DNA of 35,286 nt from Mediterranea sp. (in: CFB group bacteria) (lineage in GTDB: Bacteria; Bacteroidota; Bacteroidia; Bacteroidales; Bacteroidaceae): positions 1 through 35,286 of the forward strand of contig JAIRNG010000083.1 in assembly GCA_031258135.1 (NCBI GenBank). Reading direction: 5' to 3'. The position numbers were made by a program, and so were the translations under genes. Under the pieces are notes generated by a model. That model was given only the letters and a program-made list of their open reading frames with translations, had not been told where the DNA came from and did not search any database. Positions 18,734 to 35,096 of the stretch are shown here, piece by piece (the stretch's first letter is position 1; each line of letters begins with the position of its first letter).

Positions 18734-18965
18734 TCTTGTTTGTTTTTTTGTTCATTATATCTTCCTTGCGGCGCTCCCGCATTTCCTCCTTCTTCCTCAG
18801 GACAAACCAGAGAGCAAGAACAATAACGTAAGAAACGCCCAGGATTACATACTTTTCCGTACTCCCAATCTCCGTGTTACGCGGCAGAAAATAAACAGCC
18901 ATTGCGGTCACGTAGATAAATAATGCCAGAGTCAGCCAAACCGGCTTCTTTACTTTCCCTCTCAT
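18714..18965 (-). CDS. Small two-TM membrane protein (83 aa), translationally coupled to cstA
   Basis: AGGAG-N6-ATGA: start ATG overlaps the cstA TGA. Sequence MRGKVKKPVWLTLALFIYVTAMAVYFLP...YVILGVSYVIVLALWFVLRKKEE. Shorter than the ORF-track 18714..19184. Confidence 0.75.
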   Translation of the reverse strand: MRGKVKKPVWLTLALFIYVTAMAVYFLPRNTEIGSTEKYVILGVSYVIVLALWFVLRKKEEMRERRKEDIMNKKTNKNEKSSF

Positions 18966-20401
18966 ATACATCTCCTGTTGAATCTCTTTCTCCATACCCT
19001 GTACCACACGGCGCTCACCGCCACACATACGCCTCCCGCAACATAAGAGTGCGTTTCGGAAAGGCCTAATCCCTCCGGTGCGACACAGATGTATGTTACA
19101 CAGACCGCAGTCATAAGCAATGCCGGAATAAGGGTGACCAAAAAAGGTTTCCCCGCCCGCGTAAGATAGACGGTCAACGCCCATAAGGTAAACACGGAAA
19201 GCGCCTGATTGGACCAGGCGAAATAACGCCAGATAACGTTAAAACCCTCCTTGTCCCTGAGGCTGAAGAGCAAAACGGCCATCGTTACTAAAAGTATCGG
19301 CACACAGACGATCAGGCGCTTCGACAAAGACCGCTGCCCGACCTTGAACATATCCGCCACCAGAAGGCGGGCGGACCGCAATGCCGTATCACCGGTAGAG
19401 ATGGGAGCCGCAATGATTCCCAGAATAGCCAGCAACCCGCCGAACGCGCCCAACCATCCGTTGGATATGCCGGAAGCCACATCGGCGCCGGTATAAAGCG
19501 TCTCTTTTCCGTCCAGCATATAGCTGACGCCGTTTTCCTTAAAGAAAGAAGTAGCCGCCGCCGCCCAGATCAAAGCAACGATGCCCTCGGCAACCATCGC
19601 CCCGTAGAAAACAGGGCGCCCTTGCCGCTCGCCGGTCATGCACCGGGCCATCAACGGCGATTGCGTGGCATGAAAACCGGAAATCGCTCCACAGGCAATG
19701 GAGACAAACATCATGGGGAAGACGGACAATCCCGTATAGTTCTCTCCCAGCCCCTCCGTAATCTCGGGCAATTGCGGATGACGCCAGAACAACATGAACA
19801 GAATGCCGAGAGCCATAAATAGCAAGACCACGGCGAAAACAGGATAGATCTTACCTATAACCTTATCTATCGGAAGCAACGTAGCCAGGACATAATAGAT
19901 AAAGATAACGATGATCCAGAACGTCGCGTCCAGGTGGGCAGGCGTCATGTTGGCCAGCAATCCGGCAGGGCCGGACACAAAGACAGCGCCGACAAGCACC
20001 AGCAGCACAACCGTGAAAACACGCATCACCCGCTTCGCGCCCAATCCCAGATAACGCCCGACCGTATCAGGCAATGACTCGCCGTTGTTGCGCAACGAAA
20101 GCATACCCGCCAGGTAATCGTGCGTAGCCCCCGCAAAAATAGTACCGGCCACAATCCAGATATAAGACGCCGTACCGAACTGCGCTCCCATGATCGCCCC
20201 GAAGACAGGCCCCAGGCCGGCGATATTCAGAAACTGTATCATGAAGAGCTTCCAGCCGGGCATAGGTATATAGTCAACCCCGTCGGGATGCAGAAGCGCC
20301 GGAGTAGGCTTGGCCGTCGGCCGGACAATACGCTCTATGATTTTACCGTATACGAAATATCCGCCGATAAGCAATAAGAGGCTGGCTGTAAATGTAATCA
20401 T
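18962..20401 (-). CDS. cstA: Carbon starvation protein A (CstA) family peptide transporter
   Basis: GPVFGAIMGAQFGTASYIWIVAGTIFAGATHDYLAGMLSLRNNGESLPDTVGRYLG; ISTGDTALRSARL; start moved to MITFTASLL. Confidence 0.93.
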   Translation of the reverse strand: MITFTASLLLLIGGYFVYGKIIERIVRPTAKPTPALLHPDGVDYIPMPGWKLFMIQFLNIAGLGPVFGAIMGAQFGTASYIWIVAGTIFAGATHDYLAGMLSLRNNGESLPDTVGRYLGLGAKRVMRVFTVVLLVLVGAVFVSGPAGLLANMTPAHLDATFWIIVIFIYYVLATLLPIDKVIGKIYPVFAVVLLFMALGILFMLFWRHPQLPEITEGLGENYTGLSVFPMMFVSIACGAISGFHATQSPLMARCMTGERQGRPVFYGAMVAEGIVALIWAAAATSFFKENGVSYMLDGKETLYTGADVASGISNGWLGAFGGLLAILGIIAAPISTGDTALRSARLLVADMFKVGQRSLSKRLIVCVPILLVTMAVLLFSLRDKEGFNVIWRYFAWSNQALSVFTLWALTVYLTRAGKPFLVTLIPALLMTAVCVTYICVAPEGLGLSETHSYVAGGVCVAVSAVWYRVWRKRFNRRCI

Positions 20402-20430: not shown

Positions 20431-20438
20431 CAAAAATA
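20431..20438 (-). promoter_or_regulatory. -7 element TATTTTTG for cstA, with a TTG about 20 nt upstream
   Basis: caaaaata on + at 20431-20438; caa at 20459-20461. Confidence 0.4.
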
Positions 20439-20526
20439 GTAATTCGGACGAAATAACACAAGAATACAAGCCGTTTTGCTATACTTTACCCAAAAAACAA
20501 AGACACGACTCCTACGCTGTATCTGT

Positions 20527-20770
20527 CAAAGAGTATAGGTCTGACTGCCAAAGAGTCTATGTCTGACTGCCAAAGAGTATAAGTCTGTATTATCAACATG
20601 CACATGTTAGTATGACTTACATGCACATGTTAGTATTACCTACATGCACATGTTGGTATGACCTACATGCGCATGTTGGTATGACTTACATGCGCATGTA
20701 GGTAATGCAAACTTATACTCTTTGGCAGTCAGACTTATACTCTTTGGCAGTCAGACCTATACTCTCCGGG
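20527..20770. repeat. Composite inverted-repeat / tandem palindrome element
   Basis: Left: three 22-bp units (caaagagtataggtctgactgc etc.) from 20527. Centre: five 23-bp-spaced acatgyrcatgt palindromes from 20596, 20619, 20642, 20665, 20688. Right: inverted 22-bp units from 20712 and 20734 plus a partial at 20756. Arms 20530-20589 and 20706-20765 pair at 56/60. Confidence 0.97.
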
Positions 20771-20867
20771 AATCCCCGGAAGTCCTTCGCCACATGCTGC
20801 GCTCCGGCATACCCTGCCGGAAACAACACAAACCACACGAAAAAATAGCTAATTCTGCTATCTCCGG

Positions 20868-20898
20868 TTTGCAATCTCTAAAAAAAGGATTATATTTG
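20868..20898 (+). promoter_or_regulatory. Bacteroidetes-type promoter TTTG-N19-TATATTTG
   Basis: TTTG at 20868-20871 and TATATTTG at 20891-20898; consensus -33/-7 with 19-nt spacing. Confidence 0.75.
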
Positions 20899-20920: not shown

Positions 20921-22099
20921 ATGGAAGCATTCTACCGTACACACGCTTATCTCGTTGAACACACCAACGCCCCCGTACGCCGCGACCTTATGGACGAGAT
21001 CGACTGGAACGACCGTCTGATCGGCATTAAAGGCACGCGGGGCGTAGGCAAGACGACTTTCCTCCTGCAATACGCCAGGGAGAAATTCGGCGCAGACCGC
21101 TCCTGCCTCTTCATCAATATGAATAACCTCTATTTCTCCGCCAACTCCATCGTTGACTTTGCCGGAGCGTTCCGGAAGAGAGGCGGCAGGGTGCTGCTCA
21201 TCGACCAGGTTTTCAAGTATCCCGGCTGGAGCATGGAGCTGCGCAGATGCCACGACCTGTATCCGGAGCTGAAGATCGTGTTCACCGGCTCTTCCGTCAT
21301 GCGGTTGAAAGAAGAGAACGTCGAGCTGAGGGACATCGTAAAAAGCTATAACCTGCGCGGGTTCTCCTTCCGCGAGTTCCTGAACCTGCAGACCGGAATG
21401 AGGTTTCACGCCTACACGCTGGATGAGATACTGAACAACCACGAGCGGATAGCCCGTGGAATACTTTCAAAAGTACGGCCGTTGAACTACTTCCAGGACT
21501 ACCTGCACCACGGATTTTACCCGTTCTTCCTGGAGAAGCGCAATTTCTCGGAGAACCTGCTGAAGACCATGAACATGATGATCGAGGTAGACATCCTTCT
21601 GCTGAAGCAGATCGAACTCAAATACCTGTCCAAGATCAAGAAGCTGCTCTACCTGCTTGCCGTAGAGGGGCCGAAAGCGCCGAACATAAGCCGGTTGGCC
21701 GCAGAGATACAAACCTCGCGGGCTACGGTAATGAATTATATAAAATACCTGACGGACGCCCGCCTGATCAACATGGTCTATCCCTGGGGAGAAGAGTTCC
21801 CGAAGAAACCGGCCAAGATCATCATGCACAACACCAACCTGATGTATTCCATCTATCCGGTGACCGTGGAGGAACAGGACGTGCTGGATACATTTTTCCT
21901 CAACACCATGTATAAGGATCATAAGTTATACAAAGGAGAGAAAAACACATCTTTCCTGGTGGACGGAACCACACCGTTCAGGATCTGTTGCGAAGGACAA
22001 AAGATAAAGAATGATCCGGATACCATCCATGCGTTACACAAGATGGAAATAGGAAGGGGCAATCAAATCCCGCTATGGATATTCGGATTTTTGTATTAG
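20921..22099 (+). CDS. AAA_14 / DUF4143-type ATP-binding protein, possibly hydrolysis-deficient
   Basis: Walker A GIKGTRGVGKTTFLLQYA; VLLIDQVFKYPGW at the Walker B position; IVFTGSSVMRL; C-terminal KPAKIIMHNTNLMYSIYP. Start set at ATG 20921, downstream of the promoter, rather than GTG 20900. Confidence 0.85.
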   Translation: MEAFYRTHAYLVEHTNAPVRRDLMDEIDWNDRLIGIKGTRGVGKTTFLLQYAREKFGADRSCLFINMNNLYFSANSIVDFAGAFRKRGGRVLLIDQVFKYPGWSMELRRCHDLYPELKIVFTGSSVMRLKEENVELRDIVKSYNLRGFSFREFLNLQTGMRFHAYTLDEILNNHERIARGILSKVRPLNYFQDYLHHGFYPFFLEKRNFSENLLKTMNMMIEVDILLLKQIELKYLSKIKKLLYLLAVEGPKAPNISRLAAEIQTSRATVMNYIKYLTDARLINMVYPWGEEFPKKPAKIIMHNTNLMYSIYPVTVEEQDVLDTFFLNTMYKDHKLYKGEKNTSFLVDGTTPFRICCEGQKIKNDPDTIHALHKMEIGRGNQIPLWIFGFLY

Positions 22100-27678: not shown

Positions 27679-28755
27679 TTACGGCTTTGGTTTCCGGATA
27701 CAAAAGTACGACTCCCCGCCTATCCTGAAGCCACGGAGCAATTCTCCGACCGCCAGCCGCTTCTTGCCTGAGACCTGCAACGATTTAACGGACAGGAAGC
27801 CATCGGCGGCGGCTACATTCAGATAACTCTTTCCGTCGGTAACGATGGTTCCGGGAGTCAGGTCATGTTCTTCCAACAGTTTCCCGCTCTCATAGATCTT
27901 CACGGCGGTGCGTTTACCGTCCGGCGTTTCCAGCTCCGTCCAGGCGGCGGGATAAGGAGAAAGCCCACGGATAAAGTCATAAACGCGTTTGGTCGACTGC
28001 GTCCAGTCGATCCGGCAAGTCTCTTTAAAAATCTTCGGAGCGGGACGAAGCTCGCCAACGACGGTCATTTCTTCCTGCGGAACGGACCTCGCCGCGCCAT
28101 TCAGTATGGCATCGACCGTCTCAACGACCAACGCTCCGCCAAGCGCCATCAGCCTGTCGTGAACCATACCCGCATTGTCGGTATCGGCTATCGGAACGCT
28201 CACCTGCCGGATCACCCCGCCCGTATCGATCTCATGGGTCAGAAAGAACGTGGTAACACCCGTCCGGGTATCGCCATTGATCACCGCCCAATGGATGGGA
28301 GCCGCGCCACGGTACTGCGGAAGCAGCGAAGCATGGAGGTTGAACGTGCCGAACCGGGGCATATCCCACACCACCTCCGGCAACATGCGGAAAGCGACAA
28401 CGATCTGCAGATCGGCTTTCCAGGCCCGCAAAGCATCGAGGAACTCCCCGTCCTTCAATTTCTCCGGTTGCAACAAAGGCAGGCCATGAGCCACGGCATA
28501 CTGTTTCACGGGCGAAGCCTGCAACTCATTGTGATGACGGCCGGCCGGCTTGTCGGGCATCGTAACCACACCCACTACATGGTATCCGCCCTCGACAAGT
28601 CTACGGAGAGGCTCCACCGCAAACTCCGGCGTACCCATATATACGATTCGTAAAGCTGAAGCCTCACCGAAAGCCTCAAAAGCCTCACCCCGACCCTCTC
28701 CAAAGGAGAGGGAGGAGGAAGATACTTCCTTTTGCTTTCCTATTTGTTTATCCAT
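27679..28755 (-). CDS. fmt: Methionyl-tRNA formyltransferase with repeat-encoded N-terminal extension
   Basis: LRIVYMGTPEFAVEPLRRL, LHASLLPQYRGAAPIHWAVINGDTRTGVTTFFLTHEIDTG; preceded by MDKQIGKQKEVSSSSLSFGEGRGEAFEAFGEAS from an intergenic repeat. Confidence 0.94.
   Translation of the reverse strand: MDKQIGKQKEVSSSSLSFGEGRGEAFEAFGEASALRIVYMGTPEFAVEPLRRLVEGGYHVVGVVTMPDKPAGRHHNELQASPVKQYAVAHGLPLLQPEKLKDGEFLDALRAWKADLQIVVAFRMLPEVVWDMPRFGTFNLHASLLPQYRGAAPIHWAVINGDTRTGVTTFFLTHEIDTGGVIRQVSVPIADTDNAGMVHDRLMALGGALVVETVDAILNGAARSVPQEEMTVVGELRPAPKIFKETCRIDWTQSTKRVYDFIRGLSPYPAAWTELETPDGKRTAVKIYESGKLLEEHDLTPGTIVTDGKSYLNVAAADGFLSVKSLQVSGKKRLAVGELLRGFRIGGESYFCIRKPKP
28660..28724 (-). repeat. Copy A (inverted) of a ctccctctcctttggagaggg...gaggcttt repeat, inside the fmt 5' coding region
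   Basis: Near-complete reverse complement of 28792-28857. Confidence 0.92.
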
Positions 28756-28791
28756 TTTATATCTTATATTCTCTAATCATTATTTCCAAGC

Positions 28792-28857
28792 TATCTTCCT
28801 TCTCCCTCTCCTTTGGAGAGGGTCGGGGTGAGGCTTTGAGGCTTTCGGGGTGAGGCT
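28792..28857 (+). repeat. Copy B of the same repeat
   Basis: tatcttccttctccctctcctttggagagggtcggggtgaggctttgaggctttcggggtgaggct. Confidence 0.92.
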
Positions 28858-28860
28858 GTT

Positions 28861-28906
28861 CTCCCTCTCCTTTGGAGAGGACCGGGGTGAGGCTTTGAGG
28901 CTTTCA
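28861..28906 (+). repeat. Copy C of the same repeat, abutting the ClC stop codon
   Basis: ctccctctcctttggagaggaccggggtgaggctttgaggctttca; the final tca is the ClC TGA stop on -. Confidence 0.92.
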
Positions 28907-34908: not shown

Positions 34909-34973
34909 CGCATAAAAAAACAGGGGACGGAAATTGACTTCTCCTGCGTTCGCTCACATTAGGGAACAGGCCT

Positions 34974-35096
34974 TTCTTCCCGACATCGTCGACGAGCCGC
35001 CACATACATGTTTTTTCTTCCCGACGGCGTCGGCGAGCCGCCACATACATGTTTTTTCTTCCCGACGCCGTCGGCGGGCCGCCACATTTATATAAT
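34974..35096. repeat. Three tandem 41-bp repeats with internal hairpins
   Basis: ttcttcccgacnncgtcgrcgrgccgccacatacatgtttt starting at 34974, 35015 and 35056. Confidence 0.93.

Follow-up and report, generated by a model that had tools for sequence, protein, structure and literature searches.

A mirror-symmetric composite of 22- and 23-bp repeat arrays in a Mediterranea genome, a probable multi-site binding array for HU-HIG proteins

Proteins of the HU family are commonly seen as general nucleoid proteins. Phased repeats that follow a promoter and are bound by small dimers are found in multi-operator autorepressor and partition arrays (ParR-parC, IHF sites). The HU-HIG family was reportedly defined by Burroughs et al. 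in 2017, and its expansion is said to have been proposed there to relate to mobile-element recognition. Among the papers searched, none described an array or a sequence preference of HU-HIG proteins. The general view of HU is that it binds without regard to sequence (PMC5683647). In Porphyromonas gingivalis, the HU-family gene PG0121 lies beside a long inverted repeat (77 bp) at the capsule locus (PMC3969353). PG0121 is described there as similar to the HU of E. coli, binding varied DNA substrates without discrimination, and its mutation affects transcription; the capsule-locus feature, unlike the arrays described below, is a single inverted repeat and not a periodic array of palindromes (PMC3969353).

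The closest known element is the BrickBuilt MITE of P. gingivalis, a family of 23-nt tandem repeats present in 19 copies that are always intergenic (Klein et al. 2015, PMC4596501). Some copies have TIRs and target-site duplications, BrickBuilt segments have bidirectional promoter activity, and the family is treated in its paper as a MITE or mobile promoter (PMC4596501). BrickBuilt_14, which is 84 nt long and has neither leader nor tail, is flanked by PGN_0871 (minus strand) and PGN_0872 (plus strand), and PGN_0872 is a PF00216 HU-family DNA-binding protein (PMC4596501). This is the arrangement of the HU-HIG leader arrays reported here. The terms histone, palindrome and Bacteroides were not found in that paper by term search, and a literature search on repeat sequences and on 22/23-bp intergenic repeats in Bacteroides returned nothing relevant. 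The new part is the link to HU-HIG genes.

The window analysed here is a stretch of 35,286 nucleotides from Mediterranea sp., whose genome (G000) is a MAG of 2.43 Mb and 82% complete. The composite element occupies positions 20523-20773. Its left arm (20523-20588, plus strand) is a type-A array of three 22-bp units (CTGCCAAAGAGTATAAGTCTGA) with the core AAGAGTATAAGT; its centre (20596-20710, no strand) is a type-B array of five ACATGYRCATGT palindromes at exact 23-bp spacing, with cores at 20596, 20619, 20642, 20665 and 20688 (together 20596-20699) and a lag-23 identity of 92% across 20596-20704; and its right arm (20708-20773, minus strand) is a type-A array of three 22-bp units in inverted orientation. 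Here type B denotes the HU-HIG paralogue with a 23-bp array and type A the paralogue with a 22-bp array. Repeat tools and the sequence itself bear out this layout as given in the original prediction, and the pairing reported there between the 60-nt arms (20530-20589 and 20706-20765) was reproduced exactly at 56/60. Arms of 117 nt still pair, at 98/117, which makes the entire element a single imperfect inverted repeat. Elsewhere in the window, the highest-scoring ungapped inverted repeat of 60 nt reaches 50/60 (near 28665), and the best one independent of it reaches 38/60. Inverted duplication is the probable origin of the mirror layout. One correction to the original prediction is that the 23-bp cores are individually palindromic, whereas palindromy of the 22-bp unit is not clear (an array of the same type at L083 has a palindrome z of -0.4).

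As a kind, arrays of this sort resemble BrickBuilt in their tandem units of 23 nt, strictly intergenic setting, several to ~20 copies per genome, variable number of units, long stem-loop potential and MITE-like flanks in many copies. The window element is intergenic, and its five-unit centre is a spacer-less 23-nt tandem repeat as BrickBuilt is; the arms have a 22-bp period, and the window element differs from BrickBuilt in being a 22+23+22 composite. With up to one mismatch, the BrickBuilt consensus AGAYCATARTATCCTCTCRTRTG is absent from G000 and from 393 other genomes of the order, a set of 394 in which a check for P. gingivalis found no genome with the consensus. A search of the window for the BrickBuilt TIRs GAGACCTTTGCA and the leader and tail segments, with up to two mismatches allowed, gave 0 matches. 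That no standard feature type explains the element, as had been claimed, is true only in part, since the 23-nt BrickBuilt minisatellite/MITE is of the same sort (PMC4596501).

The assembled 82% of G000 contains the 23-bp array at two sites (C64 and C6) and the composite once; as an array, the 22-mer was found there in the window only. The second 23-bp array (C6:21484-21590) lies in the 5' leader of a type-B HU-HIG gene, between a TATCTTTG box and the gene for a 155-aa HU-family protein, and is ~80% identical to the window centre over 108 bp. This leader is the best match of the window centre (score 64, next 50), while no resident cognate was found for the arms. Only one type-A HU-HIG gene was found in the 82%-complete genome. 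It lies on C57, and its leader array (CTTATATATAGTATAAG) has AGTATAAG in common with the arms but is clearly diverged, which leaves the arms without a clear cognate in G000. The tie between the 22-bp arms and any protein of G000 is weak; the assembly may lack their cognate, or they may be relics.

Among 160 genomes of the genus, 23-bp ACATGNNCATGT arrays were identified in 11 and 22-bp ACTTATACTCTT arrays in 9, several of them beside HU-HIG genes, and the 12-bp core AAGAGTATAAGT recurs at 22-bp spacing in 8 genomes besides the host. The 23-bp type directly adjoins HU-HIG genes in G064, G071, G091 (twice) and G118, and the 22-bp type lies in leaders of a different HU-HIG paralogue in G079, G087 and G141. 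Four genomes (G146, G147, G149 and G171) have ACATGNNCATGT arrays and no close type-B protein. Further arrays with a period of 22 or 23 bp and other sequences (e.g. CTCCCGCGTGTAGCTGGAATTA, ACCGGGCATAGTAACGCCAGCA) were seen at L085:7384-7529, L089:1682-1757, L090:6359-6421 and L191:8981-9109; these are probably other array types.

All array-linked genes tested pass the Pfam cut-off for HU-HIG (PF18291), and most, not all, pass the NCBIfam cut-off (TIGR01201 HU_rel). The HU fold of the C6 protein was identified by Pfam, NCBIfam, PDB profile search and Foldseek. Its AlphaFold2 model, built from a nine-sequence alignment, has a moderate mean pLDDT of 72; Foldseek matched this model to HU/IHF structures (best E 1.7e-4), with Bacteroides vulgatus 4fmr lower in the list. 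Some HU-HIG proteins of ~200 aa have a C-terminal AbiEi/DIP2311-like winged-helix domain. One gene with such an AbiEi antitoxin/DIP2311-like C-terminus (L152:5224-5823) adjoins a ACTATAGT array.

Most of the Bacteroides genomes examined have 7 to 41 HU-HIG copies, and a few have 2-5. With genes called by simple longest-ORF choice and repeats scored against dinucleotide shuffles, 42 of 81 distinct HU-family upstream regions exhibited a repeat at lag 22 or 23 with z >= 4, and other lags were near background. After removal of the loci that had been found through their arrays, lag-22/23 repeats were present in 35/74 HU-HIG upstream regions as compared to 3/82 control genes drawn from the same loci (Fisher p 5e-11). 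About half of the tested HU-family genes, including ordinary ~90-aa HU genes of other families, had no detectable array. Palindromy of the unit exceeds that of column shuffles in 35 of the 42 arrays, and the palindromes are diverse (ACTATAGT, TTTAGACCCGGGTCTAAA, TTTGATATACATCAAA and CGTCCYACTGCAGTAGGACG among others). Half of the arrays (21/42) start 9-17 bp past a TAnnTTTG box, and the median distance from array end to start codon is 66 nt; judged by these positions, the arrays appear to fall in the first ~hundred nucleotides of the presumed leader, where HU-HIG genes commonly have ~4-5 units at 22 or 23 bp. The HU-HIG arrays resemble ParR-parC and IHF-type arrays in having phased repeats just past a promoter, with presumed cooperative assembly of dimers, and differ from them in the HU/IHF fold of the protein, the lack of a partition ATPase and the diversification of the arrays between orthologues.

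Type-B HU-HIG loci chosen by protein similarity alone had a leader array in every case (20/20 distinct loci, from sets of ten and twelve with two in common), with 3-5 units at 22 or 23 bp. Their palindromes change between species (ACATGYRCATGT, AGATGAGCATCT, CCAAGTTGCATAACTTGG, GACATCCGGGTGTC, ACGAGTTGCACAACTGGT, AAAAGATGCCATCTTTT and GACACCCGGGTGTC), and the palindrome differs both among paralogues and among orthologues of different species. The sequence thus turns over from locus to locus, but the arrays retain their position, period and unit number, a pattern not expected of a neutral satellite. Three type-A-like HU-HIG genes (L260, L262 and L263) had no array. Motif and protein covary (Mantel r 0.36, 0/5000), but non-array flanks correlate equally (r 0.39), so that shared ancestry explains the covariation as well and we do not count it as support. 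Beyond the genus, the link is based on a few loci of G047, which belongs to a different family of the order, and on the table published for P. gingivalis; array-like repeats were seen in at most two or three of the eight HU-HIG genes of G047, and breadth beyond Bacteroides is therefore not established.

These patterns point to the window element as a composite multi-site binding array for HU-HIG proteins, members of the HU/IHF-fold family, a reading to which we give a probability of roughly three in four. The multimeric protein-binding centre that had been foreseen, with units of ~2 helical turns, is thereby supported at the level of sequence, with HU-HIG as the candidate family. Each unit of an array would bind one HU-HIG dimer, and the dimers would assemble side by side along it. 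A leader array may repress its own gene by a block of early elongation just past the start, and dispersed arrays, the one in the window included, may be bound in trans, so that the DNA around them is folded or silenced. In the window, an array for the type-B HU-HIG protein (G000:C6) would be framed by mirror-image arrays of a type-A paralogue.

Dispersed copies were found at further intergenic sites in 7/7 tested genomes with a GACACCCGGGTGTC-type HU-HIG leader. No GACACCCGGGTGTC arrays were found in G003, in which the search identified no close type-B protein, and a backwards-pattern control gave zero. By core count, 16 of the 20 dispersed GACACCCGGGTGTC-array sites that were read have exactly four units or nearly so. 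Dispersed type-B arrays best match the leader of their own genome in 18/18 cases (4/4 genomes, window included), and type-A arrays do so in 1/3 genomes. Such concordance fits recognition by a resident protein and also fits recent copying of arrays. A CCCGGG-type array and its near flank are identical at G080:C1 1193503, 3513432 and 5315142 and at G021:C1 2207476, which suggests recent movement. The original prediction took scatter over sites with no conserved neighbour as the mark of a neutral satellite. On this test the outcome is mixed; the dispersed copies do lack a conserved neighbour, but the leader copies lie very consistently by an HU-HIG gene.

The alternative that survives best, which we consider unlikely on balance and still worth weighing, is that the arrays are minisatellites carried on BrickBuilt-like MITEs and spread by a transposase in trans, that they reached HU-HIG leaders by chance and that the window copy has no function. 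Many dispersed copies in G091 indeed lie within a ~320-bp repeat family with inverted flanks (TTGTTTT...AAAACAA), the CCCGGG-type sites (n = 20) have like flanks and occur in every gene orientation (6 convergent, 11 tandem and 3 divergent), and the TIRs and target-site duplications of BrickBuilt are in keeping with such a route. Chance arrival leaves unexplained, however, why all 20 type-B leaders have a like-positioned array whose palindrome varies, why the period is always 22/23 and why units are palindromic, and the window itself has no BrickBuilt TIR. The binding-array reading includes this kind of movement, in that the window copy probably arrived by MITE-like dispersal and inverted duplication, and not as an operator of cstA.

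We regard as improbable an action of the array as RNA, in which it would be an attenuator or protein-binding leader in HU-HIG mRNAs and, in the window, a long hairpin transcript. Leader arrays start just past the promoter box and therefore should be transcribed, BrickBuilt segments have promoter activity (PMC4596501), and the folding that the original prediction called for gave the window element -155.9 kcal/mol with a z of -19. The strength of this fold is a trivial consequence of the inverted repeat, though, and Rfam returned matches to microRNA and snoRNA models only, all far below gathering thresholds. Binding to DNA is preferred over a role in RNA because the units are directly repeated palindromes without a loop, as is typical of sites for DNA-binding dimers, and because dispersed copies occur in either orientation to genes.

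The element lies between divergent neighbours, as originally described. On one side is cstA (18962-20401, minus strand, ATG at 20401), a carbon starvation protein gene (PF02554, E 9e-57), and on the other a gene for an AAA_14/DUF4143-type ATPase (20921-22099, plus strand, ATG at 20921; PF13173, E 9e-24). The ATPase also has similarity to candidate defence models of PADLOC (PDC-S01; best E 3e-23). No HU-HIG gene lies beside the window copy. Bacteroides-type TAnnTTTG (-7-like) boxes, placed by sequence pattern alone, precede both genes, that of cstA at 20431-20438 (minus strand) with the array ~85 bp upstream and that of the ATPase at 20891-20898 (plus strand) with the array end ~118 bp upstream. 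These positions put the window arrays upstream of both presumed promoters and outside any leader. Joint regulation of cstA and the ATPase by a local operator between the two divergent boxes would suit this geometry, yet it is very doubtful: the array is in the leader of neither gene, and none of the relatives examined, within and outside the genus, has an array upstream of cstA. In G014 and G035, ATPase orthologues of 82% identity are preceded by a promoter region similar to that in the window, and the match there covers the promoter and not the array. The location in the window is thus lineage-specific and gives no argument for control of cstA; the placement between these two genes, which the original prediction stressed, is not conserved, cstA is not supported as the regulated target, and cstA-specific regulation was rejected because relatives have no array there.

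Also highly improbable are iterons of the plasmid type, a site that forms a cruciform and an artefact of assembly, even though the tandem 22-bp units have an iteron-like length and the whole is palindromic. Phage and plasmid collections gave no match to the window element, and viral contigs gave no exact match to the two array patterns searched. No replication gene was seen beside any array examined, which leaves the suggested iteron function unsupported; the window neighbours are cstA and the AAA ATPase. Arrays of the same types recur in independent closed or isolate genomes, although at this exact site, known from one MAG, an artefact is possible.

A broader proposal, which we put forward tentatively and at somewhat below even odds, is that the HU-HIG proteins of Bacteroides form many mutually orthogonal, sequence-specific DNA-address systems. 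Each paralogue would have its own 22/23-bp array for self-control along with dispersed copies borne by MITEs, protein and array would change together as in genetic conflict, and the window element would be two such systems fused into a mirror-symmetric nucleoprotein centre. If this is true, HU-HIG paralogues have individual DNA targets and their regulons can be predicted from sequence, and the BrickBuilt elements of P. gingivalis have a possible explanation. The arrays suggest that each specialised HU-type protein has its own DNA address, which is not generally expected of HU.

Three other repeats were observed in the window. A 42-bp direct repeat (AAAAATGAGACAATACAAATAGATTATATCTTTCTCATAGAT) is present seven times at 215-513, with 89% matches and without indels, and overlaps a 112-aa ORF on the minus strand. 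Near the contig end, at 34973-35087, a 41-bp repeat that contains a GC-rich palindrome (CCGACGCCGTCGGCGAGC) is present three times. The second-strongest 60-nt inverted repeat of the window, that pairing at 50/60, is formed by AAGCCTCACC repeats and TGAGGCTT pairs at 28659-28904.
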